Of a DNA stretch of 38,007 nucleotides, positions 20,301-35,196 are shown one piece after another. The notes beneath the pieces are model-generated. The model saw only the letters and a program-made list of their open reading frames with translations, was not told the DNA's origin and searched no databases. Position 1 is the stretch's first letter. Each line of letters begins with the position of its first letter. The DNA is from a virus. The stretch lies in IMG/VR virus record IMGVR_UViG_3300010885_028659, positions 1 through 38,007 of that record; one strand, 5' to 3'. A program made the translations under genes and the position numbers.

Positions 20301-22919
20301 ATTCCAATCCTTGATAACCGCAGCATATCCAATGTTTACATTTAATACTTTGTCTGCTTGGTTTAGATTATAGTTAAAAGTTTCTGTTTGGTAATAGTTG
20401 TCAAATACAATATCACCGAGATTACCAATACTTTTATAAACTAACGGAAATCCAAGTTCACTATCACGAGCACCAGTTCCAACTGCATATCCAAATAGTT
20501 TAGAACCAGCAAAAGAGCTACTTGGGTATAGTGATTGATCACTTAAACTATAACCATTGCTGTCAATAATATCAAATAGCGGAAATTGCGGACGACTATT
20601 GCGAATCTGAGCACGAGTCCAACTGCCATTTGCATAATAATACATATTACCTTGGTCAACTACACCTTCCATAGCAACAACGGTGTCGCCATCAGCAAAT
20701 GTGTCGATGGGAATTAAATGTACTTGGTCTGCACTGTTATCAAAGGTTATTGTAGTTCCACTAGGAATTTCAGCAATAGTATTATTGCTTATTGTAACAA
20801 CGCCATTTGTGCTATCAAGTGCAACAATGGTGGTATGTGGAGGAATATAATTTAATAGAGTTACTGACTGTCCAATTGCCAAATTAGTAAAAGTATTAAC
20901 AAATAATTTATTTGTTCCACTATTGACAAATGCGTTTGTTGCAACGTTATAACTTGAAGTTGCACGAGTTCTGTTATTTTGAACACGATAAAGTGTTTTG
21001 CGAACATCAGGGTTCGTATCATTAATAAATGCAACTGTAACGCCATTTAGTAACTGTATACCATCAGTATTATAAACATATCGGTTATTTGCTGAATCAT
21101 AAACTGTTTTTGGTATAGCAAAATTATTAAAACCTTCAATTTGTGCAAAGGCATCCGTGGTTTTACTATCGATACAAGTTACAGAACCACGATAATTTGT
21201 TCCATAGTTGAATAGTTTATAATTTGGCAAGAACTCAACAATCGGGCGTTTTGCTTGCTGTGTTGCATCAAATGCATAGGTTCCATTATTTTTCTCTGCT
21301 GCATATTGTAGCACATCACGATGGAACCAACGATTATTGCGACTCCAACTATTGCCATCTACGCTAGCACGATTTATTGTAATATAATCTTTTTCTTCTG
21401 GACTATTAGTTGTCCCATCATATCCTGTTTCATCATATCCACGACTGTTACCAAATGAACTGCCAAGATTTGTATTGATAGTTTCAGGAGTAACTAAAGT
21501 ATCATATTTTATAAGTTTGATACTGCTGCCAACGCCTTCAACAATATATTCATTGCCTTGATATTCAGCAGGCAGTACATAACCAGTAAACTTTACCTTA
21601 AGTCCACTTGTAAACTGTACCCCATTTGGACTTGTGTAATTTGGACGACCGATAATATCATCAACATTGAGCAAACTCTGTGGATCAGGTTCAACAAGTT
21701 GAATTTCACCATAGATAAGAGGATTATCTTGGTCAACATAAAAAAGAACGCTTTGTTGTGCACTTAGTGTTGGAAATTTAGTGATTACATTTACTGAACT
21801 CTTGTAAGCATAAACGTGACCATATACATCGCCTTGACCAACGAATACTTTATAAAGCGGAGTCCAATCAGTAACATAACTTAATGACATCGTTCTATTA
21901 GATTGAACATTGATTTGCCAAATGCCAGTGCGTTGACTGCTTGGAACGCTTCCCCAACCAGTGGTTGAGGTCAGTACAATATACTTTGTATCAAATGCAC
22001 GAACACCATCTAAACCGTTAGTTAAAATAAAATCATCATAATTTTGACCTTGAAGTTGTTGATAGGTCACGCCATCAACGATCATATCAACGCTTTGTGC
22101 TAGGGTTGGATAGCTTAACAAATAATCTTGTGCGGTTGATTGTGGCACATTAAATGTGATAGTTCCAGTATCAACACCGTTATTAGTTACACCCAATACT
22201 TGACGAGTAGAGATATTGTTTTGAACACTGCTTACGCCGCTGGTTCCAATTTCAGTTTGAATCCATAATTTATGTCCGCCCTGACTAATATTAAATTCAT
22301 AAGTGCCACCACGAACTAGGGTAATGGTTGGATTAATAACAGTGGTATAACCATCAACAGTGTATCCACTAATGCCTAGCGCAGCACTTTGAAGTTCTGT
22401 TTCATTATTAGCAACATAACTGTTGCGATGGAAATAATAATTTTTTTCAGTAGCAACGCCACTTGCAGTTACATCAACTGTTTGTGGTCCATTTGGCACC
22501 CAATAGTACTGACGATGATTTGTAATCTTGTCAAGGTCTATAAACCCATTGTAACTATAATAACGATTTTTAAACAAACGTTCATGGTCATTGTTAATGC
22601 CGCCATCAGCAACAATCTGGTTTAGCAAATCTACATAATTATAAACATTATTAATTTTATAAGTGTTTGTTCCAAGTTGGCGCTTCCATAGTACAATGCC
22701 TGGTTCAAGTTGATAAAATTGACTATAATTGTCGCCTTCTGCAATATAATAATCATTCTTATTAAACACTGGACTTTGATCTTGCTGACCAATATAACCA
22801 TAAAATTTCTTAAGATTTGGTTCTTGAATCAACGGATCAAGAGTTGCATTTAAGAAACGTTTATTGGATAACGTCTTGAATACTGAGGGTAGAAAAACTT
22901 CACTTTTACGCTTTGCCAT
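8400..22919 (-). CDS. 7: Giant baseplate wedge protein, gp7-like (4839 residues)
   Basis: An uninterrupted 14.5-kb frame for a ~530-kDa protein, directly after gp6 as gp7 is in T4 (1032 residues there). The marine gp7-like signature is clear. Near the N-terminus are LSNKRFLNATLDPLIQEPNL, FYQLEPGIVLWKR and ITNHRQYYWVPNGP (to ~130). Further on come LPVYLPQPENTVTDFFSEVK (~3730), VWSYYAPISGMAGRDLAQV (~4015), DINVDGGAFTDTYSSHAPEE (~4105) and the C-terminal YRIFKDLNDN and GVVVINGERITYGL. Inserted modules include seven FG-GAP-like repeats (F2275, F2327, F2625, F2749, F2879, F3036, Y3124), three CBM5/12-like units (W1859, W3923, W3967), two GGSGY units (~3830 to 3900), five GIPxGT units and about eight beta-sandwich repeats. 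No membrane segments. Its core role should be to start wedge assembly; the inserted domains may reach the cell surface. Confidence 0.85.
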   Translation of the reverse strand: MAKRKSEVFLPSVFKTLSNKRFLNATLDPLIQEPNLKKFYGYIGQQDQSPVFNKNDYYIAEGDNYSQFYQLEPGIVLWKRQLGTNTYKINNVYNYVDLLNQIVADGGINNDHERLFKNRYYSYNGFIDLDKITNHRQYYWVPNGPQTVDVTASGVATEKNYYFHRNSYVANNETELQSAALGISGYTVDGYTTVINPTITLVRGGTYEFNISQGGHKLWIQTEIGTSGVSSVQNNISTRQVLGVTNNGVDTGTITFNVPQSTAQDYLLSYPTLAQSVDMIVDGVTYQQLQGQNYDDFILTNGLDGVRAFDTKYIVLTSTTGWGSVPSSQRTGIWQINVQSNRTMSLSYVTDWTPLYKVFVGQGDVYGHVYAYKSSVNVITKFPTLSAQQSVLFYVDQDNPLIYGEIQLVEPDPQSLLNVDDIIGRPNYTSPNGVQFTSGLKVKFTGYVLPAEYQGNEYIVEGVGSSIKLIKYDTLVTPETINTNLGSSFGNSRGYDETGYDGTTNSPEEKDYITINRASVDGNSWSRNNRWFHRDVLQYAAEKNNGTYAFDATQQAKRPIVEFLPNYKLFNYGTNYRGSVTCIDSKTTDAFAQIEGFNNFAIPKTVYDSANNRYVYNTDGIQLLNGVTVAFINDTNPDVRKTLYRVQNNRTRATSSYNVATNAFVNSGTNKLFVNTFTNLAIGQSVTLLNYIPPHTTIVALDSTNGVVTISNNTIAEIPSGTTITFDNSADQVHLIPIDTFADGDTVVAMEGVVDQGNMYYYANGSWTRAQIRNSRPQFPLFDIIDSNGYSLSDQSLYPSSSFAGSKLFGYAVGTGARDSELGFPLVYKSIGNLGDIVFDNYYQTETFNYNLNQADKVLNVNIGYAAVIKDWNNYTFANGWYRVQDKSKQYITKTFSATGVQKNNFDLGVVYANSYYENNVFVYVNNVLQKGTYTLQTSSITSKIVFTYDLSVGDRVFVKIFGTSAAYKQTYTMPRNLTNNSENTEFTTITLGQIRNHLIEIGNNLQNLQGEPAGSNNFRDLNFNYVGGKLLQHSASLRPAALMYANNDVDPIAAIRFGADSYAVFKNQLLDYINKREFPDPSNYRDNIDDILSEFAQTTNSNSTFYYTDMIAGGKNYVENSYTVQNTTYRTYNLTESYTNATKEYRAVLVYLNGVLLINNVDYTISGATIVINSSVTLSRGDKIVTNEYKSTQGCNVPATPTKLGVYPKFKPEIVYDNTYAVSGEGNGILGIVGHDGSFTVGYGDYRDNILLEFEKRVYNNLTVDYANNTDYDLISVEPGAFRVRDYSFPEWTQLLSSEYLRWSNSNNVDIFTNTTVSNDVFTYNYSSGVDKIFGNSVPGYWRGIYNYFYDTDRPHTNPWEMLGFAEKPTWWDNRYGPAPYSSENSVLWGDLELGFVYNGAPNKSYINSSYTRTGLSKIIPVDSHGNLLPPLQSVVVNYNSNDAALNWRVGDQSPQETAWRRSSSYPFAVQIAWALARPAEYCALKYNTRDLTYNSNLNQIINSKSNSRVFDYSITDANDYIPGINVWIRDYLVSNNLDVNENWINIARNSTFNLVYKMGAYTDKSYLTIVADQVSPQSTNSSVIIPQENYRVKVTKSAPVARAVYSAVIVKKVTGGYQVTGFDKARPYFLTIPSRVSANNYGISVGSETAIIYKDSEDTVASYPYGSIFNNKQQVVDFLVSYGRYLTSQGFSFNNFLADNTTQSDWTLAAKEFLFWNQQNWGNDTVISLTPAGTKLNFSSPYGIVDTISNTNNYTKVVDSDNTTLTGRDYRVYRDDNTFSIELKNAQKGIHLLDIAIVQYEHTIIFDNNTVFNDILYDEQVGSRQFRLRVDGAKTQDWNGSLYAPGFFVNVSEIPQWVSYTDYYTGDIVLLKNQYFAAQKFIPGTQKFAISDWYPINGSLLDKELIPNMASGAAQFANFHNPDAADLNSAADLLGKHETGFTSRQYFTDLGLDITSQYKFYLGMIAQKGTQAVLNAFLRNQQKRIDSDIRISEQWAIKLGNYGGTANTDKLEFSIGNSIAINNQYLFEFTNQSDARSDIYNTVKPSDLVIRPRTYKTNIFAQTEPSKQIIPYAGPVNTADVSATVFDISKIYNISGLNTVMGESSKVWIAADSGNQWGVYRLSQTGRVFVIGVSHTSPTELTFTTNSAHNLVNLDYVMLRNAKINSAQSTSSIADLSGFYRISAVTNTTFTVKINNNVTISSGQLNAQLFKLINVRYSTVNDFAAFVPVRGWQTGEIVYIDNGPDGYAVKQNTNSWVYNDTRSPVFTKPTDNFGSSVKINHNQGFAVVGASSRNTTGQAFVYGKKQDDTWQEIGILTPANSSASFGANVDINGNDIAIIAAPSGNKGIVYTAVVNSQQVSLNQAIHYDNLYVLSAGFSTSNSYILISPTATLSTTANIAQTASYSLANFAVGMKVVGAGIPSGTTIANLTPVAALNDITMSKNATLKFSDAATILTANSSIFTTLYANITSSNANVYIGNTGQSITGIVANTMPVLGNGIPVGTYIKSISNITGYKVLTLSSNVTTPTGNLLTFVGSNLGITQSITSAATTTNNSHFIVNGYQSLYGVANGQPIVGANIANGTVISNLSIGSAYNLIGLTNAATISANQKIGIYPNVTPSSAFGTSISASGDGNWLFIGEPATNSVYVYKYSNVAVAATSTRTGDGSSTSFSYPINATGLNLSARDIKVYVNSVLKVPGLDYIKTPSQESITFDVAPPNNSIINLIYESSFTEVNRIITDDPEVSGFGTSVSTNNDGRIVVIGAPGSTATTDTSYTNAGKTYVFERTAENFVATGTTSTFQLSNALVGLTTITTPNVITHPSVTVDGANVAATFNYTTNQVVLAAIPSSGSIVNVETNQFIPIKIATTDVGQQNSNFGQAVKLSQNGSLAFSSAPGYSQSSSQNGAVYRLVNVPRMYGNIVGNKTNFIVTANSSIRINDYLVTFGQTLRPPYSTIYYNSDVYQAANTINAAKIPYITAGVISNGAIYISSSDLHSTSKIYMRNEYGNPLSTMGIDQWQSVQKMFNPLVQDTARFGEILSISPDANTLVVGSTLSNTRITTTFDSAKTTFDRATVRYVDIVYRSGAAHVYEYQTSATETASDQGSFAYATLLNDKFAGALDRYASGVDISNNFILVGAPYAKILGNNTGAMYVYYNKNAQPIWKNIRSEGEKFDSRIVERVYLYNTKSSRLIADLPVYDLTHGALPNSAESYIDYTINYDPAVYNHVPTTVSFAYDRKNAWGSEKVGTLWWDTNSIKYYDASQGNTLEKFNKWGLAFPASTVTIYEWIESDQLPKDYATSYPLTQPLYTVNDVYSSQIVIDENTGQPVTKYYFWIHNSTNSTNSSRPSALELQSYIANARNSSEPFAAIVGTNAFAVFNAQNIITDDTNLVIEYKDTLKPQLVHSEWTMFDDGTDLGVAIEFINKLNDSLTGQDASGRIIPDPNLPIGQKYGMDTAPRQSLFNNQYFARQLYVEKINNICKTYPMVLTRSEAIAALNNSDPLPSSGTYKTVVANITELGYLDKNTYAAGDSVLVLQDSNTHNNGWSLNRLIVKFPNTRSWETYQVQTYNLNDYWSYSDWYSANYNPLVPITTSVDNESDISQLSLNVNDIIYVRNSTNGGWKIVLVNYANLELLAQQNATIQFKENLYSQVAAGQGFQTSSFQAVGFDTDSNLEFNRIFDVVTNYLLTNEYRTEYKQTLTLMIDTIASQHLQTDWMMKTSFVDLYHRVRGLDQLPVYLPQPENTVTDFFSEVKPFHTKLKQYVAKYDNNNALDYAYTNATDFDLQPYYNTVIKKYRSPQLGNTLDTTILATQALYQPWVINHKYNVRLVDIVDGGSGYDGTTEVLINGDGTGATARAYIVNGAVNTIVVTNNGVNYTYATVQINGVGTGAKAVAIVGNGLTRTLDTYIKFDRISYFNTVIDWAANTAYTINTVIVYEAQPYRVITNHTSGSTFDFTKFVELRVKVWYPQTLYAINDVVVYKNTSYVATETFTSNLNFDTASLVAYNGLWLDNACDRVWSYYAPISGMAGRDLAQVMVGIEYSGNQILGPAFNQTPGYDVNNYDSIAYDLATKDVENVYDVYGSQTEDTIIRSLFTDTGLGLRPQDINVDGGAFTDTYSSHAPEEFVPSIINDTLDIKVKTLPIQNGGPDIKIFTSNYVGSKTFSFDPLVTGVDYPLGGIEKFYVIDRALGPIAETYHYTINYQTKTITTVYEPQVGTFFYVMMFGSNGESPIFDQDYYADGVQTDFNIDDSTLNSVEQAYVKVNGIKVDNWTLVNKLENSRGILAVRFNTAPNANDYVQVHLYGVPLGTRAYSEIYEQTFVITSANYPTGYNFTIDNPEIYAQPISAYAIVRLNGSDLLPPQQTYNIGDGITKNFSLTNSWVENIANITDAEVMVLIDNVLQTNNIDYTIYHDPTNVAMPIVQFTVAPNSGSLIVFSDSSQSDFKIYDGNQLWINPAVNISIPSKLTVFTQGNHDVNQQYTKLFSGDTNNTSVIDNGLDTTGFDTVGFDNELSNFIGTIYYTLPRAVTNINQLYMTLKSPNTTGGLPLLPYRDFRLVTPTIVVLSSELTISSTSVIGVRIFGEPVRETTLEYRIFKDLNDNTRYYAVRSARETFLAANLHITDQWIYVSDITTLQSPEPITNTAGVVVINGERITYGLIDTVNKRLGNVRRSTGGTGAANLYVSGTRVIDSSSTLEIPNSRDTYVVTPNDTYLGGGATNVKFISANAYSGTNVIALNDITNISLNQYVFSNISGIIPSNTTVTNIYKGNSSVKLSANLTANLTTKSTGNLLLSNTVSFVTSILVTANSTIKQGKIFTNFNESLQSSTTQYAQFIRATK
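10900..11160 (-). other. Tandem CBM5/12-like modules in the giant wedge protein
   Basis: Two adjacent units (W3923: DWAANTAYTINTVIVYEAQP then YRVITNH; W3967: VWYPQTLYAINDVVVYKNTS then YVATETF) show the W----Y-----V-Y----Y-a pattern of chitin-binding type 5/12 modules. A third copy lies apart at about 17350-17240 (W1859). Sugar binding is an inference from the aromatic pattern. Confidence 0.55.
13440..16110 (-). other. FG-GAP-like seven-repeat propeller region within the giant wedge protein
   Basis: Seven units follow the integrin-alpha FG-GAP pattern, FG--V-------ivvGAP-----G-vyVy. Examples are NFGSSVKINHNQGFAVVGAS, SFGANVDINGNDIAIIAAPS, AFGTSISASGDGNWLFIGEP, GFGTSVSTNNDGRIVVIGAP and DRYASGVDISNNFILVGAPY. 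Spacings are 52, 298, 124, 130, 157 and 88 residues. The long gaps are filled by three GIPxGT units (15085-15695) and two beta-sandwich modules (14330-14550 and 14720-14940). Seven units would close one beta-propeller. The fold is inferred by pattern. Confidence 0.7.
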
Positions 22920-22921
22920 TA

Positions 22922-25900
22922 TTAATAACTCACATAGTACTGACCGATGCCAGCACTGTTAATACCACTTAACACACCTTGGACTATTTGAACATTCTCA
23001 ACAGTTGCTGCACTTAAAAATAATTCATTTGGTTGACAACGAATTTCGTATAAACTACCAAAATAACTATTAATATCAGCAGGAATTAGCACAATAGAAC
23101 TTATATAATCACTTAATTGTTTATGAAGATAACCAGAAAGTTCACTGAAATAGAAAGTATCTCCAAAATCCCAGTTATCTAAGCTGAAATATGCATTTAC
23201 CGTATCAATGACACGACTTTTAACTTCAGTATCACTTAGCGTAGTGCTAGGATTTTTAACAACTTGGAAATTTGCTCGTAAACTTGGAATAGCCTTTGTA
23301 CCAAATAACAATTTATATACGCCTGCATTCAATATCATTTCATCACTTATCATTTTATAATTAAACAATCCGCTATAAGAACTGTTTAATTGAACACTAT
23401 CAAGGTCAGCAGGTTTAGCAACTACGCCAGTGGTATCAAGAACGTAATTACGATATGCTTCGTCATAACTGCGTGTTAAAATATAGGTGTCAATAAGATT
23501 AGTTGCCGCAGGATCAAGACGACGAGTATTTTCAGCATTGTGTTGATATTCAAATACTAAATCTTGACGACCTATATACGCATAATAATTTGCGGTAACA
23601 TCAACTACTGTTACAACACCATTTACAGATTGTATTTGATAGAATGAATCTTCTGATAATGCATAAAAGACAGTTCCTACTGGAAAACTATTACGAACAT
23701 AGTTAATATCACTATAAGTTTTATAAATTGAATTTACTGCACCTGTTGGCGATAACTGCAAACGAAGCAAGTTATCACTGTCAATATATGTATTATAAAA
23801 TATATAATTCATACCATCTGTAGTCTCAGTGAATATATCTGGATCGGTTGGCAACTTGCTAGTATTACTAATAGGATAAGTTACATAGATGCGTGTGCTA
23901 TCAGTATAACCATCATTTAATACTACATTTTTATAAATGTTCATATTAACTTCACGGGAAATTCCACTGTTTACAGTTAATAATCTTATATTATCTTTAA
24001 CAATAGTATTTGTTGCTGCATCATAAACAGGCAATGGACTTGTTCCGATAAAAGATACTTGCTTGCCACTGCCAAATACAAAGTCAAGTTGACGATATGT
24101 TACTGTGTATCTTACCCCATCAGTTGTAAAATACATTAACCAACTGCTATCATTCGTTGAATATTGTGAAGCAAGATCAAATTGTGGTAGTTGATTGCTA
24201 GTACCCATATTGACGCTGCTTATAGGAATAATTGTCCACGGGTCACTTGTTGTGCTTGCAGTTTTATTATAATCATAAACTAAACCAAATTCAGTTTTGT
24301 TTAGAATATAATTGGTCATAGCATTAATTGTTGTATTTTGAATAGTAGTTGCAAAGGTTGTATACACACGACTAACAATAGCGCCGGTTGGAATACTTTC
24401 ACTCAGCGTAACTGCACCAATATTACGACCAGCAACCAACACAGTACTTGCACCAGTTCCAGTGACATTTTGAATACTTGCCCAAATAACGGTACGATCA
24501 CTTGTTAGCGTTGGATTACCGTTTACAAGCGTATTAGTAGCATCAAAATAATAACCAGTTGGTGCAGTAAATTTAATCAAGCTGTTAGTGTTTAAAAACT
24601 TACGATAATTTGTAATACTGCTGCCAATTTGCACAGGAGTTTTGGTAGTATCGCTAGGGTCTAGGAAGAAACCTGTACTTGTTGTGGTATCATCAGTACT
24701 GCGAGTCCAAGTAGTTGGCTGCAACACAGTAAAATCAAGTGGTGTCCAATTTTCATAATAGAACTGACGCATTGGATAATCTTGGATAATAGGAGTAATT
24801 TGGTTATTAATAACCTTTAAGATGTCATTGCGACTATTATAGGTAAAATGAAAACTTTGCACAAAATCATCTTTATAAAACACACCATCACGAGCATAAA
24901 GATCAGTAGATGTATATTTTCCAGTTGGGTCAGTGATATCTAAACCACGAGACACGCCACTAGCAAAACGATTTACAGATTTTACTTTTACGATATCGCT
25001 ATAGCTTGTGTATGGGAAAGTATTATAATCTTCGCCATTAACCATACGATTTTGTGCATAATATGCTTGTGGGGCTTTTTGCTTAATATCATTTGTCAAG
25101 TCACGACGTGAAGAATTGCTTACAGTATATTGTAGGCTAGCACCAATAGTAAGAGTTTCTGGGCGACCATTAGCACTGATATAAGGAATAGCCACACTAA
25201 TATTTGCCATATCACTTGGAGCAATGCGATAAGTTAAGCCATTTGATACACGATAATATGCACGATAGTTGCCAAGTGGAATTTCACTGAAACTTCCATC
25301 GCCAAATACAAGATCAATTTGGTCATTAATACGAGTGTTTACACTATAAAGTGTGCGAATACCACGAGCAGTAGAATTGTAAATGGCGTTTGTACCAGAA
25401 GTACTTGCAACCTTTGTCCATTCATTACCAATGGTACCATTAGTAATTTCATACATCCAGATATCACTGTTATTAATGTTGGCTACGTCAATCCCAAATA
25501 CACGATTGGCTACTTTTTCAGTAATAGAAAAATCAGTAGAATTTAACACACCTTGCTTAAAGAATAAGAAGAATCCTGTGTTATGACTTGCATTACCACG
25601 ACTATCATTTTGATAGATGATACCAAATTGTCCACGTGTGCCAGGATCATATTCACTAATTGTGTCACTTGTTAAGATATTTGCACTTACTACTTCAAAG
25701 TTAGTTGCAACATCGCCTACTAATGCGCCAAAAGTAAAGATAGGTAGAATAGTATTTGGAACTGCAATGTTATATTGTTCAGTCTTGATACCATTAATAG
25801 TCTTGCTAGCATAAGGTTTACCAACTTTCTGGCTCTTATTGATAGCAGCATTCATAATTTGTGTAAATTGATTTACCCAACTTGCATTATTAGCATCATT

Positions 25901-26332
25901 CCAATTGATGGTAGTACGACTTAAATTTGAACCATTGATATCAAATAGGTTCTCAGTTGTGTTGACACTGTTAATCTTTAAGAAGCCACTTGCGGCACGA
26001 TTACGATTTGGAACATAATTTAATTGTTTTACTAGTTTCAGGACGCTATCACGGCGTTCTGCTGTTTCTAAAAAGTTTTCACGTGCATTGAGGTCTGTTC
26101 TAAATGCGACACTTTGTGCAGTAAATGCAATAAGGTCAAGTAGGGCTACATACTCACTGCTTTCAATGAAATCATTAAAATCTTCAGCATAATAGGTCTT
26201 GACATAATCAACCATAACCTTGCGCAGAGTTTCAAAGTCGTAACTTTGGAAATCGGCATTAGAAAATGTTGTATATATTTTCTTCCAATCTTCCGCAGCA
26301 AAGATATTAGTTTGACGAGCATTAGTAGCCAT
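22922..26332 (-). CDS. 6: Baseplate wedge protein gp6
   Basis: An 1136-residue protein, much longer than T4 gp6 (660). The N-terminal family region is clear: SYDFETLRKVMVDYVKTYYA, DFNDFIESSEYVALLDLIAF, then FRTDLNARENFLETAERRDS and LKLVKQLNYVPNRNRAASGF (residues ~30 to 120). The C-terminal baseplate-J-like part has KSRVIDTVNAYFSLDNWDFG, DTFYFSELSGYLHKQLSDYI and CQPNELFLSAATVENVQI. gp6 forms the ring of wedge dimers that joins wedges around the hub and drives the sheath-contraction switch. The extra ~450 residues lie in the middle, with beta-rich sequence and a YRQLDFVFGSGKQVSF stretch. The start has Shine-Dalgarno AAGAGG and a late-promoter-like box; the stop sits 3 nt from the giant wedge start. 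Confidence 0.9.
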   Translation of the reverse strand: MATNARQTNIFAAEDWKKIYTTFSNADFQSYDFETLRKVMVDYVKTYYAEDFNDFIESSEYVALLDLIAFTAQSVAFRTDLNARENFLETAERRDSVLKLVKQLNYVPNRNRAASGFLKINSVNTTENLFDINGSNLSRTTINWNDANNASWVNQFTQIMNAAINKSQKVGKPYASKTINGIKTEQYNIAVPNTILPIFTFGALVGDVATNFEVVSANILTSDTISEYDPGTRGQFGIIYQNDSRGNASHNTGFFLFFKQGVLNSTDFSITEKVANRVFGIDVANINNSDIWMYEITNGTIGNEWTKVASTSGTNAIYNSTARGIRTLYSVNTRINDQIDLVFGDGSFSEIPLGNYRAYYRVSNGLTYRIAPSDMANISVAIPYISANGRPETLTIGASLQYTVSNSSRRDLTNDIKQKAPQAYYAQNRMVNGEDYNTFPYTSYSDIVKVKSVNRFASGVSRGLDITDPTGKYTSTDLYARDGVFYKDDFVQSFHFTYNSRNDILKVINNQITPIIQDYPMRQFYYENWTPLDFTVLQPTTWTRSTDDTTTSTGFFLDPSDTTKTPVQIGSSITNYRKFLNTNSLIKFTAPTGYYFDATNTLVNGNPTLTSDRTVIWASIQNVTGTGASTVLVAGRNIGAVTLSESIPTGAIVSRVYTTFATTIQNTTINAMTNYILNKTEFGLVYDYNKTASTTSDPWTIIPISSVNMGTSNQLPQFDLASQYSTNDSSWLMYFTTDGVRYTVTYRQLDFVFGSGKQVSFIGTSPLPVYDAATNTIVKDNIRLLTVNSGISREVNMNIYKNVVLNDGYTDSTRIYVTYPISNTSKLPTDPDIFTETTDGMNYIFYNTYIDSDNLLRLQLSPTGAVNSIYKTYSDINYVRNSFPVGTVFYALSEDSFYQIQSVNGVVTVVDVTANYYAYIGRQDLVFEYQHNAENTRRLDPAATNLIDTYILTRSYDEAYRNYVLDTTGVVAKPADLDSVQLNSSYSGLFNYKMISDEMILNAGVYKLLFGTKAIPSLRANFQVVKNPSTTLSDTEVKSRVIDTVNAYFSLDNWDFGDTFYFSELSGYLHKQLSDYISSIVLIPADINSYFGSLYEIRCQPNELFLSAATVENVQIVQGVLSGINSAGIGQYYVSY

Positions 26333-26375: not shown

Positions 26376-26762
26376 TTAAAGTACGTAAAGTCTGCTGCTT
26401 GACTTATCAAATAGCACACTTAAATCTGCTACTTTATTGTCAGTGGTAAATTGAAGAGAAAAATTTAGTACAAGTCCATGACCATCTGGACTTTCTTGCA
26501 CAATTGTTTGACTAACAACATTGAATCTTGGGTCATATGCAATTATTCTATCAATATCTTGCTTAATTTCATTCTTTAATGCTGGTGTAAGAGGATCAAA
26601 AAGTCGATTCCAAATAATACAACCAATATTTGGATTGTGAAGTTTTTCACCCTTACGAATCTGCAAATGATTTAATAAATCTTGGACTATGAGATCATTG
26701 TCACTGATCGCATAGGGTCCAAAATCACGATTAACTGAACTATAACCTTTATATGTTACCAT
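26376..26762 (-). CDS. 25: Baseplate wedge protein gp25
   Basis: 128 residues, close to T4 gp25 (132). It has the family elements DFGPYAISDNDLIVQDLLNH, LQIRKGEKLHNPNIGCIIWN, RLFDPLTPALKNEIKQDIDR and YDPRFNVVSQTIV, followed by strands rich in hydrophobic residues. The glutamate of the conserved EPR motif seen in contractile-system homologues appears as D in the DPR here. gp25 belongs to PF04965 (also TssE in type VI secretion). It bridges wedge and sheath and acts as the first sheath-like subunit. Despite the old family label lysozyme it has no proven enzymatic role. It lies between the gp5-like hub gene and gp6. Confidence 0.92.
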   Translation of the reverse strand: MVTYKGYSSVNRDFGPYAISDNDLIVQDLLNHLQIRKGEKLHNPNIGCIIWNRLFDPLTPALKNEIKQDIDRIIAYDPRFNVVSQTIVQESPDGHGLVLNFSLQFTTDNKVADLSVLFDKSSSRLYVL

Positions 26763-26777
26763 ATTAATATTTACCCA

Positions 26778-29700
26778 TTAACAACTTGCTGCTCCTTGCC
26801 CAGTAGCAGCACTGCCTCCAGGCGTTCCTTGAGCACCGCCCGGTGCCGCACTGCCTGCGCCAGGTGCTTTTGTATCAGCAGTGATTGGTGCGGTTGGTTG
26901 CGATGCATCAGCATGCACTACTTCATTAGTTCTTGGATCATACTTTAATTCTCCAGTATCAGAACTTGGAGCAGAACTGAAACTGCTTCCGCCGCCAGTT
27001 CCAGATACTGAGCTTGGTCCACCGCTCATACTATCGCCGCCGCCAGTACCTGATACTATACTTGGTCCTTCACTCATGCTGCTGCCACTGCCTGTACCAG
27101 TTGGACTTGAATCATAATACATATATGAATTGTCCGTTGCAGTTGGACTTGAGGTGTTATACATGTATGATGTATCACGATCATATGTAGTATCAGCCGC
27201 ACTAGATTGTAAAGTGCCGCTATCTTCAATTGATTTAATACCGCTGGCACCAATTTCAGAAAGTGAACTTGGCGTTTGCCCTTGGTCAAACAGTGTTTTC
27301 ACTGTGCTGTCTTGAATTACTACATTATTACCAGCGTCATCCTTGCCGATATATTGATACTGACCACTTGCCACATCATATGTTCGTTGTAACCCAGGTA
27401 CTGAGTTATAACTTGGTGGGTTATATTCTGTATTGATACTGCCACCTGGTTCATATGCAGTTGAATCACTGTTACGTGGATAACCTGATGCATAATAAGA
27501 GTTACTATCTGCTTCTATTTGCGCAGAGACTGATCCAGTTGCATCACCAGGTTGCTTATCAAGAAGAGGCGATGTTGCGATAATAGTATCTTTTTGACTT
27601 TGTAATGTAGCAACATCGTTTTGATATGCGATAGTTCTTGGATCATTGGGACCAAAAGTATCCAATGCATTATTATATTGAGTAGTTTTATTAGTAAGTT
27701 GTGAATCAAGTGTGTTAATTTTGTCTTGTGGTGTTGGTTGTGACACAGTAACATTTGTTGATATGCCATTATAACCAGTTCCACTGCCAATAGTTTGTCC
27801 TCTTAACTCTGCTTGTTGCGCAGGATCAAGTAAATTGCGACCGTTGCTTGTTGCAACAGTATCTAAGCTATCTGGACGAGTTGGTGGAATCGGAACATCT
27901 GCGGGAGGATCAACCTTTGTTACAGCACCGGGTACCTGAACACCATTTGGTGAATAACCATTTGCTGCACTCTTTGCAACATAAAATTTGTCTGCACTCT
28001 CTGGACCATTTCCATTTAAAATTACACGTGGTCCGCATGCTTTGCCACTATATTGATCTTGAACTATCATGCCATCACGGTTTCCGTTAGCATCATAGTG
28101 ATAATCAAGGAAAACTGCAGTATGGCTTTGACCGCTTACACCACCACTGCCAGGCGGTGCATAAGCAGGATTTCCATTTGCATCTGTAAAGTTAGTTGTA
28201 ATAATCACTGTTCCTGCCTTGATATCGTTTAGAGAAGAACCCATTACATTTTGACCTTGTTGCAGACTTGACATTGTGCCAAAGTTTGGTATAGTAGATT
28301 GTGCAAGAGCAGCACATTGTCCATTACCAAATACTTTGCCATTTAAATCTGCAAACACGCCTGTATTTTGTGCAATTGCGCTGCCCGTATTAGAAGTATT
28401 ATATCCACTGCCTATAGTTTGACGAATAGTATTACCAACGCTTGCTCCAACATCAGCAGCTACGGTTCCAACAACATTGTTGAGAACGCTATTGAGAATA
28501 TAGTTGCCAATCTGTTGCATTGGACTTGCGCCGCTGTTTACAAGGTTGTTATTAGTTGCTGGATTAACAAAGCCACTATATGGATTTGCACCACTGCTAT
28601 TTTGCCAAGGCTTAGTAACTGGCTGTGCACCGTTAAGGAAAGTTTTAATATCAATGTTTAGACTTAATGCGCAACCATTTGCTACTTGGTCATAGGTATA
28701 AATGATACGACCTTGAATATACTTTATAATATTTGCTGCCCAACCAATACGAGTAGTTGGGTCTTTAAGTGCCACATAATCGTTTGGTCCAATGCCTAAA
28801 TTATTCTGCATAAAACGAGCAGCATCAACAACTCGTGGGTCTTGTAGATTAGTTGCCTTCAAGTATTGTTGTAACAACTGTGCACACACTGTGCTTGGAT
28901 TAGCAGCAAAACTATCAAATAAGGTAATAAGAGCAGCAATTCCTTGTTCTGGTCTTGCATATACTGCTAAATTATGTGCAAATCCAACTGCATACGCATC
29001 TCCGCTGACATATTGTAGATTGCCAGGATTGTTTTGCAATTCTCCAGTGCTATATTCTGGACTACTGTTGTTATCAGAACTTAAATTGGTTATATCAAAG
29101 TATGCACCGCCACCAAAAGTAAGATTTTGAACAAGTGCGGCAGCAGCATAACTTATACCAGTTTGAACAAAACCAGCAGGCGCATAATTTCCAATTGGGT
29201 TGCCTTGTCCTTGTAAACCAGGAGGATTGTTTGTATAAACAATAGGCGGAATATTGTTAGTCATTGGACCATAACTTGGTTGAACGCCACCATTGCCAAA
29301 ATTATTAGGTGCACCATATGGACCAGATGCGCCAGTTGCTTGACCTTGCTGTGAACCATAAGGTTGCTGTGCTTGTGGATTTGGCGGTGAGGCACGACCA
29401 CTAAATGTTTCTTTGCTTGGCATTCCTTGTGGCGGAGTTGCCTTGCCTGCTTCCATTGCTTTTGTTGCTGCCTTTGTATTAATGGTATGACAAGCACCCT
29501 CGGCATCAATGTGCCCATCACTCTTTATCTGTAAACAAGCATCGCCAGTTAGATAAGAATTTTTACCTTTCAAATGCAATGCTGTTTTACCAGTCATCTT
29601 TGCGTTGCCATCTGCCAACACATTAACATCTTTTCCTTGTATATTAAGCGCACCATCGCTTACAATATCAACCGTTGCGCCATGTAATTTGAGTGCACCC

Positions 29701-30650
29701 TTAGTTTCTACGTTAACTTCACTTTGTGCAAAAATGTTTACTTTGCTGCCACTATAAACATTCATGTCGCCTTGTGAGTTAATTTCTACCCAACCAGTGC
29801 CTTTACTATTGATAACATAGATGAAGTCTTTGGTATCATTCATCATAATCATATGACCGCCGCTAGTGCGGAAACGCATCATTTGATTTTTGCCATTTAT
29901 ATCGCCATCATCCATAATAAATGTGTGACCACCTTTGCGACCACGAACACCTATTTCGGTTGTGCCTTCACCAACACTACTTGTATCGGTAGGACTCTTT
30001 GCAGTACTGAGTGGTTGACCAGGCGTACTAATACCAAATACACTACTAGGCGTTTCACGGAATGCACTACTAGTGCCTGGTCCACGATCAGGGTCTTTTA
30101 ATAATCCTTGTTTATCCCATATTGCTTCTTGATATTGATGAACATTGCGCTGGTGTGAAGAAAAATTTTGTAAATCACCAGGCGTACTACTACCATCATA
30201 AAAATCTACAACAGGAGAAGGGACACCGCTGTTACCGCCAGCAGCACTTATGCCAGGAACCATATGTAAACTTGGCCACTCAGGAATACAACCAAACCAA
30301 AATCCATTAAATGGATTGCCGTTAGCAAATGTACAAAGAACTTTAACACCAATATCAGGCGGAACAAACCACATACCATAACTATGTGGATTGCCAGCAT
30401 AATCTTTATTATCACGAATATCTGTTACGCCGTAAAAAGGCGTACAGTAACTCATAGTTCTCCAACTGCTGTGATCATCAGGATCACCACCAAGTTCGGG
30501 AATCCAAACTTGAAGTTTACCGCTGCGAAGAGGATCGGTATTTGCCTTAACAATACCCACATAGGGACCGGGCGATATACGGATACCTTGTGCACTCTCG
30601 TGGGTATATGCTCCACTTGTTTTAGAACTATCTTGTAAACTGTGTTCCAT
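26778..30650 (-). CDS. 5: Baseplate hub spike, gp5-like, with C-terminal putative murolytic domains
   Basis: 1290 residues. An OB fold (~25 to 135) has GPYVGIVKANTDPLRSGKLQ and GFWFGCIPEW. From ~228 to 400 comes the triple-stranded beta-helix, with EINSQGDMNVYSGSKVNIFA, ALKLHGATVDIVSDGALNIQ and similar repeats. T4 gp5 has its lysozyme between these two; here only a short linker is seen. Instead there is a long C-terminal part. Residues ~538 to 650 (NNPGNLQYVSG, YARPEQGIAALITLFDSF, YIQGRI) resemble the P5-like domain of phage and bacterial murein-active proteins. Residues ~770 to 890 look like an NlpC/P60-type Cys peptidase (GNGQCAALAQ with C779, SHTAVFLDY with H843, VQDQYSG with D865). A coiled-coil-like stretch (~975 to 1030) and a Gly/Ser-rich tail follow. 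Enzyme activity is inferred. Confidence 0.85.
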   Translation of the reverse strand: MEHSLQDSSKTSGAYTHESAQGIRISPGPYVGIVKANTDPLRSGKLQVWIPELGGDPDDHSSWRTMSYCTPFYGVTDIRDNKDYAGNPHSYGMWFVPPDIGVKVLCTFANGNPFNGFWFGCIPEWPSLHMVPGISAAGGNSGVPSPVVDFYDGSSTPGDLQNFSSHQRNVHQYQEAIWDKQGLLKDPDRGPGTSSAFRETPSSVFGISTPGQPLSTAKSPTDTSSVGEGTTEIGVRGRKGGHTFIMDDGDINGKNQMMRFRTSGGHMIMMNDTKDFIYVINSKGTGWVEINSQGDMNVYSGSKVNIFAQSEVNVETKGALKLHGATVDIVSDGALNIQGKDVNVLADGNAKMTGKTALHLKGKNSYLTGDACLQIKSDGHIDAEGACHTINTKAATKAMEAGKATPPQGMPSKETFSGRASPPNPQAQQPYGSQQGQATGASGPYGAPNNFGNGGVQPSYGPMTNNIPPIVYTNNPPGLQGQGNPIGNYAPAGFVQTGISYAAAALVQNLTFGGGAYFDITNLSSDNNSSPEYSTGELQNNPGNLQYVSGDAYAVGFAHNLAVYARPEQGIAALITLFDSFAANPSTVCAQLLQQYLKATNLQDPRVVDAARFMQNNLGIGPNDYVALKDPTTRIGWAANIIKYIQGRIIYTYDQVANGCALSLNIDIKTFLNGAQPVTKPWQNSSGANPYSGFVNPATNNNLVNSGASPMQQIGNYILNSVLNNVVGTVAADVGASVGNTIRQTIGSGYNTSNTGSAIAQNTGVFADLNGKVFGNGQCAALAQSTIPNFGTMSSLQQGQNVMGSSLNDIKAGTVIITTNFTDANGNPAYAPPGSGGVSGQSHTAVFLDYHYDANGNRDGMIVQDQYSGKACGPRVILNGNGPESADKFYVAKSAANGYSPNGVQVPGAVTKVDPPADVPIPPTRPDSLDTVATSNGRNLLDPAQQAELRGQTIGSGTGYNGISTNVTVSQPTPQDKINTLDSQLTNKTTQYNNALDTFGPNDPRTIAYQNDVATLQSQKDTIIATSPLLDKQPGDATGSVSAQIEADSNSYYASGYPRNSDSTAYEPGGSINTEYNPPSYNSVPGLQRTYDVASGQYQYIGKDDAGNNVVIQDSTVKTLFDQGQTPSSLSEIGASGIKSIEDSGTLQSSAADTTYDRDTSYMYNTSSPTATDNSYMYYDSSPTGTGSGSSMSEGPSIVSGTGGGDSMSGGPSSVSGTGGGSSFSSAPSSDTGELKYDPRTNEVVHADASQPTAPITADTKAPGAGSAAPGGAQGTPGGSAATGQGAASC
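28056..29040 (-). other. Putative peptidoglycan-degrading region of the gp5-like spike
   Basis: This encodes the P5-like NPGNL unit (N at residue 541) and the NlpC/P60-like unit with Cys779, His843 and Asp865 in the usual order, separated by a ~120-residue linker (Asn, Gly and Ser rich). Both are pattern-based calls. Together they could replace the lost T4-type lysozyme during cell-wall penetration. Confidence 0.55.
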
Positions 30651-30660
30651 TTCTTATCCT

Positions 30661-33600
30661 TTAACCGCCGTCTTCGCTTAATCCCTGACCACGTGCTCCT
30701 GTTATATTTGAATATCCAGAGGCATCTGTAGCACCAACACCACGATTACGAAAATCGTCATTTCTTAATGGACCAGTATAACGAGTTATGTTAGCAACCG
30801 TATCTGGTGCAACTACTGTATTGGTAGGTTTTTCAGCAACAGGACTATTGCCAGCATTATTGCTACTTGTTGGCGCAGCACCATTTACACTGTCGCTACG
30901 AACCGCATTGGTTGGAGGCGCAGATTGGTTGCGCACACGATAATTTTTCAACTTCTGCGTAAATTTACCACCACTAAACGTACTAGTAACTTGTGCTACT
31001 CGATATATTCCACTAAACTCGCTATAGTTGCCAGCAGAATTAAATAAACCGCTAGTATCATCATAATCAGTATTGGGCGTAGCGAAATAAAAGTTAAAAA
31101 ATACAGCATTTTTATAATTTACACTACCATTTTTAAGATATTGTTCATTTCCTATAAAACTTGGATGACATATAGCATAATCTTGGCTAATCCAATCTGG
31201 ATCACCGACTATAGTAAAATCAAGACGAATCATATCTCCACGATTATCATATAATTTTTCCATTAAATCTTGAACTGCAATAGCTTTTCCACTTTGCGTA
31301 GTAGCACCTGTATTTTGTTGACCAGGCAGTCCACGCAAGTAATGATAGCGAGGTTTAAAAAATCTTGGATCGCTGCTACCATCATATCCGCCGCCGCCAT
31401 ACGGTTGTTGCTGACCAGGTGCATCATTTGCTTTATCTACATACTGACCCGGCACACCATTTTTTAATTCAAAAAATGCCATATTGTAATCAACAGTGGC
31501 ATCTATAACATCACGATTATCGCCGCTATAGATATACTTGTAAGTTTTAACAATTTGACTTTGATTTACTGGTGCTTGACCAAAACCAGGCGTATCTTGT
31601 CCATAATTCATATAAGGAGTTATTACATATTTCACAGTTCTTTGATAGTAATTAGTTGAACTATCAATGTCACCAAATTGTATAACTGGAGTAATTTTCC
31701 AAGTTTTTAAAACTTGCGTATCATGTCCGCTATCAGTATTCTGATTTAACATATAATCACTGACAGTGATAACTTTACCGATAAGATCAGTAATTTTTGA
31801 ACCACCATTTACACGGAAAGAACGTTTATCTGTGCTTAATGTGATTGAACCTTGTTTTCCAAGATTAATTGAATTAGTATCTTTACCACCTGTATTTGGT
31901 GCAGATTGTTCTTTAAACACATTTGGGTCTACAATAGAAGCATTGCCAATTTCATCTGCAAATTCAAACTCATAAGTTGTTGGTTTTTTCTTGCCTTTGT
32001 TTTCTGGTTTACACAAGTCTTTTTCGTGATTGTTAAGGGCATCAGCAATACCTTTTGTTACAATTACATTAGATATTCCCGCACCACTAGTAACATCTGC
32101 CACACTAGTTTGTGTTTTAGGTTCTCTGGCATCTAAACCTGTTCCGTTTGTTTGTGTAGCAACGCTGCTAAAAGTTTTTGCATTAAACAAATCAGTGATA
32201 GTGCCTCCTTGAAATTCTGCATGAAATGGAATAGTATTATCCAACCCAGTTAACCCCAATGCATTAACTGGTATAGCTTGACAAGAATATTTGCCGCCAC
32301 TGGCAGTGACACCAAATTTCATATTAATAAATGTAAACGGTATAAATTTTGTAGTTCCAGGTATGACATCGCCGTTAGAATTTTTAGATTGCGGAACACC
32401 TTCATCATTGTATCCAAGAAACTCTATTTTCATTACAAAAAAAGTAGTACTCCAATTACCACCTGGATTAATACTATTTGCTAATATTTGTAATCTGGCA
32501 AGGAAGTTGACCGTATAAGGTTCTATAATATCAAATTTAAGTTTAATAACATCGGTTGCACGTGTTCTTCCACCACTAGTATTAACTATAGTTTCAAGTT
32601 CAAGATTATCTATTGTTAAATCCGCAGGAAAAAATGTTCTATCTACGCCAATTCCACTACCGCCATCAGCACAAACAAATTTAGCACCATTTAATAGTAC
32701 ACTTTCGTTGCCAGGAAAAACTGCCTTAGAATAAATTTGATTAATTGTTGTTCTAGGTATACCATACAACGATATGCGATATGTATAGTTTGTATAAGAG
32801 TGTAATCGGTTTACTCGTGAAGAATTTCCTGTATTGCTACTGCTCGTGTTGCTTACTGCAGTAGTAGGCGATTGTACACCAGTTGCCTTGCCACTACTTG
32901 TAACAGTTACGCTTTCATTTCCATTTGGAATTCTAGTAGTTGCGCCTTCTGATAATGCATCACTTGCTCCGCCAAGCGGCAAACTTCTATTGTTAAGTGG
33001 TGTTTGATCTGTAAATTGTGTGTTATCTACTTTACTTTGATTATTTGTGCCATCTTCGCTAACGCCACTTACTGTATTAAATCCAGTTCGACCCGCACCA
33101 ACTTCGGTTATACTTGGGTCAGCACCAAGAAGGGTTGCATCCTTTACTGCTGGACTTGTAACAATATTGGATTGTGGAATACTGGTTCCTTCTCCACTAC
33201 TTGCAGCAGTATTGTTGTCACCACTTGCTCGTAGGGAATATTGTTGAGCAAGAAGTTGATTTTGTTCTGTTGCGCTTTGTGCCGCAGCTTGAGCAGCCGC
33301 TTGTTGATTAACAATAAGAGTATCTGCCGCTGGATCAATTGGTTGTCCAAATCTTTGATTAAAACTATCACTTGCAGCAATTGTTTCTGAGCTACTAGCA
33401 GGCGGTAATTCAACAGTTGGTGTTGCGTCTTGGCGAGCAACTTGTGCGCCATATGCTTGTGTAAGTGCAGTATCAAATGCAGAACCTTGAGTAGTTTTTG
33501 GTGAAGTATTGATTGCAGTTGTATACTGCTGCGCAGTTATGTTTGTTCGTGGAGTATTAACTAACTGTCCACTGCCAGCGCCAGTATTATTAGAAATAAT

Positions 33601-33840
33601 GGTATCATATGGTCCAATATCTTCAGGTAGCGCAAAAATAGTGTCAAATCCACCCGTTGTGCCGTTTCTTACTGCAACTTCAAGATCAGGATAATTGCCA
33701 CTGTTTAGGATATCATATGCTTTTGCTTCATATTCTCCGCCAAGTACTGCACCTTTTTGTGCTAACTCTTGCTTAAGCCAAGTTTTCAACTGATTGCTTG
33801 CTGCGGTAAGTTGTTCAGTCTTTGTTAAATTGGTTGGCAT
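30661..33840 (-). CDS. Large baseplate hub / tail structural protein in the gp27 position
   Basis: 1059 residues. The N-terminus (1 to ~60) is helical (SNQLKTWLKQELAQKGAVLG). Residues ~100 to 340 are low-complexity and rich in Gln, Ala, Ser, Thr and Asn. A folded core begins at ~342 (HSYTNYTYRISLYGIPRTTI) and continues with FPADLTIDNLELETIV, LKFDIIEPYTVNFLARLQIL and GLDNTIPFHAEFQGG. Near the C-terminus come FTIVGDPDWISQDYAICHP (~878) and FSGIYRVAQVTSTFSGGKFT (~940). That is the G-Y-V--V-s-fs-GkftQ-L ending of hub proteins that receive a gp5-type spike. The gene directly precedes gp5 with a 10-nt gap. T4 gp27 has 391 residues, so this is far larger; homology to gp27 is plausible but not shown, so I leave the symbol empty. 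The Shine-Dalgarno is AGGAAC. Confidence 0.7.
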   Translation of the reverse strand: MPTNLTKTEQLTAASNQLKTWLKQELAQKGAVLGGEYEAKAYDILNSGNYPDLEVAVRNGTTGGFDTIFALPEDIGPYDTIISNNTGAGSGQLVNTPRTNITAQQYTTAINTSPKTTQGSAFDTALTQAYGAQVARQDATPTVELPPASSSETIAASDSFNQRFGQPIDPAADTLIVNQQAAAQAAAQSATEQNQLLAQQYSLRASGDNNTAASSGEGTSIPQSNIVTSPAVKDATLLGADPSITEVGAGRTGFNTVSGVSEDGTNNQSKVDNTQFTDQTPLNNRSLPLGGASDALSEGATTRIPNGNESVTVTSSGKATGVQSPTTAVSNTSSSNTGNSSRVNRLHSYTNYTYRISLYGIPRTTINQIYSKAVFPGNESVLLNGAKFVCADGGSGIGVDRTFFPADLTIDNLELETIVNTSGGRTRATDVIKLKFDIIEPYTVNFLARLQILANSINPGGNWSTTFFVMKIEFLGYNDEGVPQSKNSNGDVIPGTTKFIPFTFINMKFGVTASGGKYSCQAIPVNALGLTGLDNTIPFHAEFQGGTITDLFNAKTFSSVATQTNGTGLDAREPKTQTSVADVTSGAGISNVIVTKGIADALNNHEKDLCKPENKGKKKPTTYEFEFADEIGNASIVDPNVFKEQSAPNTGGKDTNSINLGKQGSITLSTDKRSFRVNGGSKITDLIGKVITVSDYMLNQNTDSGHDTQVLKTWKITPVIQFGDIDSSTNYYQRTVKYVITPYMNYGQDTPGFGQAPVNQSQIVKTYKYIYSGDNRDVIDATVDYNMAFFELKNGVPGQYVDKANDAPGQQQPYGGGGYDGSSDPRFFKPRYHYLRGLPGQQNTGATTQSGKAIAVQDLMEKLYDNRGDMIRLDFTIVGDPDWISQDYAICHPSFIGNEQYLKNGSVNYKNAVFFNFYFATPNTDYDDTSGLFNSAGNYSEFSGIYRVAQVTSTFSGGKFTQKLKNYRVRNQSAPPTNAVRSDSVNGAAPTSSNNAGNSPVAEKPTNTVVAPDTVANITRYTGPLRNDDFRNRGVGATDASGYSNITGARGQGLSEDGG

Positions 33841-33841
33841 T

Positions 33842-34159
33842 TTAAGTTCCTAATGCCGTCTGTAGTGTACTCTTCTGAGGCAAATAAATCACTGTTCCTG
33901 CGGTAAAATCCCATAGCGGATCAAATAGCGTATTAGGATTGCGTGCTGCAAATACCCACCATAGACCAGGATTGCCATATAAGTCATAGGCAAATAAATC
34001 TGGACGCAAATCATATTGTGCAGGAATAGCAGATAGCATATCATTTGCAAGTTTTGGAATTGCACGATAATTCATTATATCAAGAAATTTACCACTATCA
34101 AAAGTAGGAGTGCTGTAATAAGGACTAGTTATAGAATAATTTGTTGGAGTGGTAACCAT
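33842..34159 (-). CDS. 53: Baseplate wedge protein gp53
   Basis: 105 residues with the gp53 hallmark YDLRPDLFAYDLYGNPGLWW, VFAARNPNTLFDPLWDFTAG, then TVIYLPQKSTL; the last part resembles a LysM-like strand. gp53 clamps neighbouring wedges together with gp6 and gp25; T4 gp53 is longer (196), so this is a short version. I set the start at the ATG at 34159: it overlaps the stop of the upstream gene (TAATG) and sits 9 nt after a strong GGAGG. A TTG at 34168 would add three codons but lies only 1 nt from that Shine-Dalgarno, too close to be used. Confidence 0.88.
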   Translation of the reverse strand: MVTTPTNYSITSPYYSTPTFDSGKFLDIMNYRAIPKLANDMLSAIPAQYDLRPDLFAYDLYGNPGLWWVFAARNPNTLFDPLWDFTAGTVIYLPQKSTLQTALGT

Positions 34160-35196
34160 TATAACCAACCTCCAGTTCCATCATTAGCCTTAACCAGAGC
34201 ACCTTTTGCAAATCCTTGCAGACTAAATTCATTGCTAGTCTTGTTGCGGCTGTATGTTGGCATTAGACTTAAATTAACATTTAGGCTAGTTGGCATCTTT
34301 TGTTTTTCGCCTTTTACAGTGCAACTAATATAATCTACATCATTTGGCAATGAATAACTGAAACTGGTTACAACTACTGGTATATGGTCAAAGGTATAAA
34401 TTCCGTATGCATCTAAGAACAGAACTGGCGGCGGTGTGCCAGCCAATTGGTCTTTACCATAAAACATTTTAGTAACACTGCGGAAAAAATGCAACATTGC
34501 AACCATATATTCTGCTTCTGCAGGATAGTTTGCAGTAAATGTTCCTGTAATATTGATACCATCTACACTGCTATGCTGATAAGCAGGCGTAGTATAATTG
34601 GTATGAACAAGGTTCATCATATCATAACTTGCCTTGTGGGTAACTTCAATCGTAGGAGTATATGGAAACAACACGCCGCCTAAATCTGCAAGTGGAGAAA
34701 ATACTGCACTTGCTCCGATAAACTTACCAGTTTGGTCATAAATGATTACACGATCTTCACTATCATCCTGCCATGCAACATTGCTTGCGCCATTACTTGG
34801 TTGCAATAATTGTTCATTGGTAGCACCCTGAGAGATACCGCTGCCATATAAACGCCCATTGGTTGGGTCCATTGTTGCACCGCCAGTTAATCCGCTTACA
34901 AAACCATTTAACGCACTGTTTATTGCAGTATCAACTAACTGAGTTTTTAAACTTTGTGTGCCATATTGACTGATATTATTAATTCCGTAGTTAGCATAAC
35001 TTTGTGCAGGCAAACGATATCCAACTGTGCCTGGTACTTGATTGGTTGGAGTATAGCCAGCAAAAGCAGCAATATTATTCAATACACCATTGCCAATAGG
35101 CTGTGATTGTCCTGGATTATAAAATACAGGATTTTGTTGATTTGCAAATGGAGTTCTGCTATAATATTGTTGTGGTGAAAAATTAAATAAAGCCAT
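34159..35196 (-). CDS. 48: Baseplate tail-tube cap protein, gp48-like
   Basis: 345 residues, near T4 gp48 (364). The C-terminal two thirds carry the family pattern: LFPYTPTIEVTHKASYDMMN, NYTTPAYQHSSVDGINITGT, FTANYPAEAEYMVAMLHFFR, SVTKMFYGKDQLAGTPPPVL, then PVVVTSFSYSLPNDVDYISC and MPTSLNVNLSLMPTYSRNKT. The N-terminal ~130 residues are Asn, Gln and Gly rich and probably extended. gp48 sits on top of the hub and starts tail-tube polymerisation with gp54; a gp54 assignment is the main alternative, since both share the tube-like fold. It is the first gene of the leftward late operon, with Shine-Dalgarno GAGGT and a late-promoter-like box 16 nt before the ATG. Confidence 0.82.
   Translation of the reverse strand: MALFNFSPQQYYSRTPFANQQNPVFYNPGQSQPIGNGVLNNIAAFAGYTPTNQVPGTVGYRLPAQSYANYGINNISQYGTQSLKTQLVDTAINSALNGFVSGLTGGATMDPTNGRLYGSGISQGATNEQLLQPSNGASNVAWQDDSEDRVIIYDQTGKFIGASAVFSPLADLGGVLFPYTPTIEVTHKASYDMMNLVHTNYTTPAYQHSSVDGINITGTFTANYPAEAEYMVAMLHFFRSVTKMFYGKDQLAGTPPPVLFLDAYGIYTFDHIPVVVTSFSYSLPNDVDYISCTVKGEKQKMPTSLNVNLSLMPTYSRNKTSNEFSLQGFAKGALVKANDGTGGWL

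Follow-up and report, generated by a model that had tools for sequence, protein, structure and literature searches.

The baseplate spike protein gp5 of phage T4 joins an OB fold to a triple-stranded beta-helix and is encoded beside gp53-, gp25- and gp6-type genes (PMC5259590). In T4 a lysozyme lies between the OB fold and the helix, and the chain ends at the helix tip. The spikes of RaK2, 121Q, CBB and Serratia BF (RaK2-like spikes) follow another plan, in which an N-terminal OB fold is followed by a DUF2345/gp5 helix with no lysozyme between them, and two wall hydrolases, M23 and GH24, come after the helix. The CBB protein, CBB_240, was reported to combine an N-terminal gp5 domain with a lysozyme at the C-terminus and possibly an M23 domain, and to be present in virions (PMC5259590); the plan of a spike that carries cargo is therefore known. 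VgrG2b of P. aeruginosa, an evolved VgrG, likewise places an adapter and a periplasm-acting enzyme behind a gp5/DUF2345 helix (PMC6899460), although it belongs to the type VI secretion system (T6SS), uses a TTR adapter and a metallopeptidase, and kills rivals. We analysed a spike gene from IMG/VR virus record IMGVR_UViG_3300010885_028659 (positions 1 to 38,007; the whole 38,007-nucleotide stretch is referred to as the window). The gene occupies 26778..30650 on the minus strand, as do all features given below, begins with ATG and encodes 1,290 residues. We consider it probable that its product is a cargo-bearing spike in which the OB fold serves for docking, the helix for piercing, a Tae2-type domain (D2) for cutting and an Enc34-endolysin-fold domain (D1) as a non-cutting holder, with an exchangeable enzyme slot and a tail that may be fixed by its cysteine.

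The N-terminal OB fold (residues about 24-125, 30276..30581) matched PF04717 at the family cut-off (5.8e-5, residues 84-121), and PHROG 13211, 'baseplate hub subunit and tail lysozyme', aligned with residues 20-383 at 2.2e-36 without a large insert. A conserved linker (residues 126-234, 29949..30275), holding a RGPGTSSAFRETPSSVFGISTPG block common to all these spikes, leads to the triple-stranded beta-helix region (residues about 235-400, 29451..29948), which was assigned from PHROG 13211 and from DUF2345 and Gp5_trimer_C matches at the same place in relatives. A first-pass annotation, made from the letters alone, had the OB fold running into the helix with no lysozyme between, and this was borne out. 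Only ~110 residues separate the two, they align end to end in all relatives and gave no lysozyme match, and there is therefore no room for a lysozyme at this point; this makes the spike gp5-like rather than a tail lysozyme of the T4 type. Beyond the conserved helix region, which stops near residue 400, come about 890 residues, against the ~900 estimated in the annotation. The same annotation suggested either a differing tip architecture or a C-terminal part that is cleaved or folded back; sequence does continue beyond the helix, but a differing tip is not unique to this spike, since RaK2-like and many uncultured spikes share it. The PA5oct spike (477 aa) comprises an OB fold and helix, with no further domain found. 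Behind the helix of the window's spike lies a linker rich in Pro, Gly, Asn and Gln (residues 401-519, 29094..29450) with a YGPMTNNIPP block conserved in the alignment. Single-sequence searches of residues 400-1290 against Pfam, NCBIfam, PHROGs and the PDB gave nothing convincing, and domain calls in this part rest on family profiles, single-sequence searches being uninformative.

By profile and fold, D2 (residues 745-905, 27936..28418) is a Tae2/BPSL0067-type papain-like amidase domain with intact catalytic residues and predicted activity. Its family profile retrieved Tae2 (6win) from the PDB at 9e-14 with Cys, His and Asp aligned, NCBIfam BPSL0067_fam (NF033857) matched 7 of 12 members (best 1e-18), and Foldseek with the window's D2 model found 6win at 1.5e-4. 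An AlphaFold2 (AF2) model of residues 490-905 built from 12 sequences had a predicted local distance difference test score (pLDDT) of 52.8, and about 70 in the D2 part; even so, the PDB entries that it matched significantly were the correct ones. Alignment to Tae2 and to relatives placed the catalytic residues at Cys779 (28314..28316) and His843 (28122..28124), with Asp865 (28056..28058) as the third. The Cys and His were invariant in 30 of 30 distinct sequences, and the Asp is replaced by Glu in one subgroup. These are exactly the residues that the annotation had picked. Its label for the region, NlpC/P60-like, was right as to papain-like cysteine catalysis, and Tae2 and NlpC/P60 fall within the same papain-like superfamily (PMC10318531), but it was too broad: there was no PF00877 match, the site is C-H-D and not C-H-H, and the family is specifically Tae2/BPSL0067. 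Tae2 acts on the meso-diaminopimelate (mDAP)-D-Ala cross-links of stem peptides (PMC3695027). It is a free T6SS effector with an immunity protein, whereas D2 forms part of a phage structural protein and has no immunity partner; because it sits in a phage structural gene with a gp25 gene directly after, we regard D2 as a Tae2-family domain and not as a T6SS effector. Searches of 50,697 phage records and of the PHROG families gave no match to D2. The closest bacterial relatives of a sister D2 are BPSL0067 proteins encoded on plasmids of the methanotrophs Methylocella and Beijerinckia (62% identity, 1e-32), a kinship that may point to the donor or the host. On the Methylocella tundrae plasmid (L254, 2446-3730; relatives and comparison sequences are given by L numbers) the BPSL0067 gene is followed by a small overlapping open reading frame (ORF), perhaps for immunity. 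A C-terminal Tae2-type domain was also seen on another kind of viral protein with weak similarity to a PHROG 'head protein' (L111, 3090-4877; L112, 4642-6438).

D1 (residues 520-690, 28581..29093) carries the NNPGNL motif that the annotation had taken as the mark of a P5-like region. Profile and fold pointed elsewhere. Remodelled by AF2 with 37 relatives (pLDDT 85.9), D1 had significant Foldseek matches in the PDB only to the two chains of 7q47, the Enc34 endolysin (1e-6 and 8e-6, template modelling score 0.65-0.70), and its profile found 7q47 at 1e-10 and phage Gp29 at 5e-13; phi6 P5 did not figure in the listed PDB matches, whether by profile or by Foldseek. Phi29 gp13, tried as a further relative, reached only E values of 0.06-0.1 and was dropped. 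D1-type domains also occur in ordinary phage virion proteins (tblastn; BFVD library). The catalytic domain of the Enc34 endolysin (7Q47, PHA02564) shares the fold and the NNPGN motif with D1, but it is a free lysis enzyme, for which the published account (PMC8943055) gives Glu131 as the catalytic residue, together with Trp79 and Tyr95. All three residues are kept in Enc34, Gp29 and the non-spike viral proteins L168 and L169. In all fused spikes, by alignment, Glu131 gives way to I, V, L, M, N or T, Trp79 to Y, F or L, and Tyr95 to M, F, L or A; in the window's spike these three positions are Ile645 (28716..28718), Tyr and Ala. With the three replaced, D1 reads as a homologue and not as an active glycosidase. 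It has nevertheless been maintained. The ratio of nonsynonymous to synonymous substitution rates (dN/dS) was 0.04-0.16 in most close pairs and about 0.3 in two distant pairs, and purifying selection on D1 was strong even in spikes with no other recognised domain. A fold that is kept while its site is lost points to binding or holding, and D1 is probably a non-catalytic adapter. Of the two murolytic-like domains proposed at first, then, both are real, being found on dozens of independent contigs with profile and fold matches to solved lysins, but a second murolytic activity, from D1, is unlikely.

What follows D1 varies. Most relatives have Tae2, L021 has SLT and L164 a phiKZ gp144-like transglycosylase, and no enzyme was recognised after D1 in L015, L143, L150, L151, L153 and L154. 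On the OB-helix tree the absence of D2 requires several changes, and L015 is without D2 whereas its near relative L013 has it. At the level of predicted domains, these comparisons demonstrate that the enzyme slot after D1 is exchangeable. In the wider family the slot holds M23 and GH24 in RaK2, CBB, BF and Vibrio 2.275.O, and SLT_3 in XacN1, and a trypsin-like serine peptidase domain follows the helix in Agrobacterium phage Atu_ph07 (L083, 3971-6565) and Sinorhizobium phage Phosso (L087, 4001-7132). Among the spike C-termini of L178-L253, a VanY D-Ala-D-Ala carboxypeptidase was found in six uncultured spikes, a GH19 chitinase-like domain in one and SLT in L193, L197 and L203. RaK2-like spikes as a rule carry hydrolases behind the helix, and many uncultured spikes do too. 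RaK2-like spikes also share the baseplate synteny of the window; they differ in that M23 and GH24 are not homologous to D1 or D2, in a length of about 890 aa without a terminal-Cys tail, and in a second, free lysozyme gene that follows the spike and is absent in the window. Within the collections searched, the combination of Tae2 with a putatively dead Enc34 domain is new.

The chain ends in a low-complexity tail (residues 906-1290, 26781..27935) that is probably disordered, 78% of it being G, S, T, N, P, A, Q, D or Y, and its sole cysteine is the last residue, Cys1290 (26781..26783). We compared 44 distinct proteins, comprising full-length D1 spikes, D1-bearing C-terminal fragments and the second proteins of split pairs. 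Every one ends in Cys, and the last 250 residues are otherwise Cys-free (10,956 positions). As background, a final Cys was seen in 4 of 353 ORFs of these loci and in 0 of 42 spikes lacking D1. The 44 are not independent events, since the sequences are related, but the tails around the terminal Cys are only 38-41% identical between some relatives. The short separate D1 protein of L023 is without it. Our guess is that the terminal Cys forms a linking disulfide or binds metal on the trimer axis. Tails and bodies also differ in relatedness: the L013 and L010 spikes are 94% identical in the tail and 68-80% in the body, and those of L102 and L103 are 56% identical in the tail and 96-100% in the body, which suggests that tails have been exchanged between spikes by recombination.

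We propose the following sequence of events. By homology, the OB fold would dock the spike trimer on the hub, and tail contraction would drive the beta-helix through the outer membrane. In the periplasm D2, whose catalytic residues are intact, would cut stem-peptide cross-links, at mDAP-D-Ala by analogy with Tae2, and so may open a path for the tail tube. D1 would meanwhile hold or aim the cargo on peptidoglycan without cutting, as its residue losses and strong purifying selection suggest. As a guess, the long tail reaches well away from the tip, and its last Cys anchors it through a disulfide or metal. Several points weigh against this account. The window's own D2 falls below threshold in NCBIfam and Pfam, a single-sequence PDB search with the window protein found nothing, and the D2 assignment comes from the family profile together with a model whose pLDDT there is only ~70. 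Several spikes have D1 but no recognisable enzyme, and D1 may therefore do more than hold. The conserved Glu537 (in GELQNNPGN) could be an alternative acid in D1, and the Enc34 Glu131 was, in the accessible part of its description, assigned from structure and not from mutation (PMC8943055).

The alternative that survives best, although we hold it to be unlikely, is that the C-terminal cargo is cut off before or during infection, taking the maturation cleavage of gp5 further and freeing a soluble enzyme. D1 and D2 are flanked by long flexible linkers, and a two-chain form evidently works in relatives. In six of them (L021, L159, L162, L164, L166 and L167) the reading frame of the spike ends within D1, and an abutting, apparently coupled gene resumes at once with the second half of the domain; in L023 the split falls just before D1. 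The junctions of the six (L021 7800, L159 6201, L162 6207, L164 6201, L166 6219 and L167 6222) read TAATG, ATGA, or TAA with ATG a few bases on, and Shine-Dalgarno-like ribosome-binding sequences, for example AAGGAGG, precede the second ATG. In the six-member clade, sequencing error and programmed frameshifting were both rejected, given that stop/start junctions with an ATG and ribosome-binding sequences recur across distinct contigs; an intron was rejected because the ORFs abut. The six form one clade with L022 and L023 (support 99 in the OB-helix tree), and a wider search for further members found no new contig. Glu131 is kept in these six, in the second protein, and in no fused member; L158, split at another place within D1 (6393), has lost it, and so has L023. 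By eye, the second split protein of L166 (6222-9179) resembles an SGNH/GDSL hydrolase (LSTGTNSWGSNP...VIGDSRA), with no database match. Against a cleaved cargo, the alignment gave no sign of a conserved processing site, and in one close split pair purifying selection acts on each half of D1 (dN/dS 0.07 for one, 0.10 for the other), which suggests that they still join. It is likely, on this comparative evidence, that the halves do join and that in completing D1 the second protein becomes docked on the spike.

Next comes the annotation's own reading, in which both domains are active, D1 cutting glycan and D2 peptide, with Glu537 beside NNPGN as the most likely acid of D1. We judge this improbable. 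In its favour are the strong selection on D1 as the sole recognisable domain of some spikes, the Glu of GE(L)QNNPGN, which almost all spikes keep and Enc34-type enzymes lack, and the comparable pair of M23 and GH24 in RaK2-like spikes. The replacement of all three Enc34-site residues stands against it, and so does the split clade, which has Glu131 as well as a Glu537-type residue, so that the latter does not look like a substitute. That the Tae2 domain is instead an antibacterial or superinfection weapon riding on the virion, unconnected with entry, is very improbable: Tae2 is a T6SS effector family and the sister D2 has its close plasmid relatives beside a small possible immunity gene, but known phages carry ordinary wall enzymes at the same tail-borne place, and no immunity-like gene stands beside the spike, where gp25 comes at once.

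Returning to the cargo-bearing spike, we also offer, as a tentative and rather doubtful extension, that its parts make up a standard coupling, in which a dead lysozyme-fold adapter is combined with interchangeable wall enzymes and a Cys-free tail fixed by its terminal Cys. In the sister clade the adapter would be built from halves of two proteins, so that domain and active site form only when the cargo docks, a split lysozyme serving as the docking joint.

The surroundings of the gene have a T4-like baseplate order: a gp53-like wedge gene (33842..34168; PF11246, PHROG 7145), a large virion structural protein in the place of the hub gene (30661..33840; PHROG 11190, 2.2e-18) upstream of the spike, the spike, an adjoining gp25-like wedge gene downstream (26376..26762; PF04965, 1.2e-8) and a gp6-like wedge gene (22922..26332; PHROG 10646, 1.2e-275). 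A similar order surrounds the spikes of RaK2, PA5oct and CBB. Named-phage relatives of the spike, among them RaK2, PA5oct, Atu_ph07, 121Q, CBB and other large phages, are 23-33% identical to it, with matches confined to the first 23-31% of the protein. We interpret the protein as the spike at the centre of the baseplate in a large T4-like phage related to RaK2 and PA5oct, and infer by homology a trimer positioned at the tail tip. No PAAR tip protein was found among the proteins scanned in the window, which is a fragment. The tail block also contains an ORF of 4,839 aa (8400-22919) with FG-GAP repeats (1.4e-16) and a weak CBM5/12 match.

The finding that all 44 proteins end in Cys and the splitting of a gene inside a lysin domain set testable puzzles about how a blunt-ended spike is built and loaded. 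The results also go against labelling every such gene 'tail lysozyme', since here the lysozyme-fold part is probably dead and the predicted cutter is an amidase. Contractile phage spikes, like evolved VgrGs, use the place behind the helix as a slot for unrelated wall enzymes.

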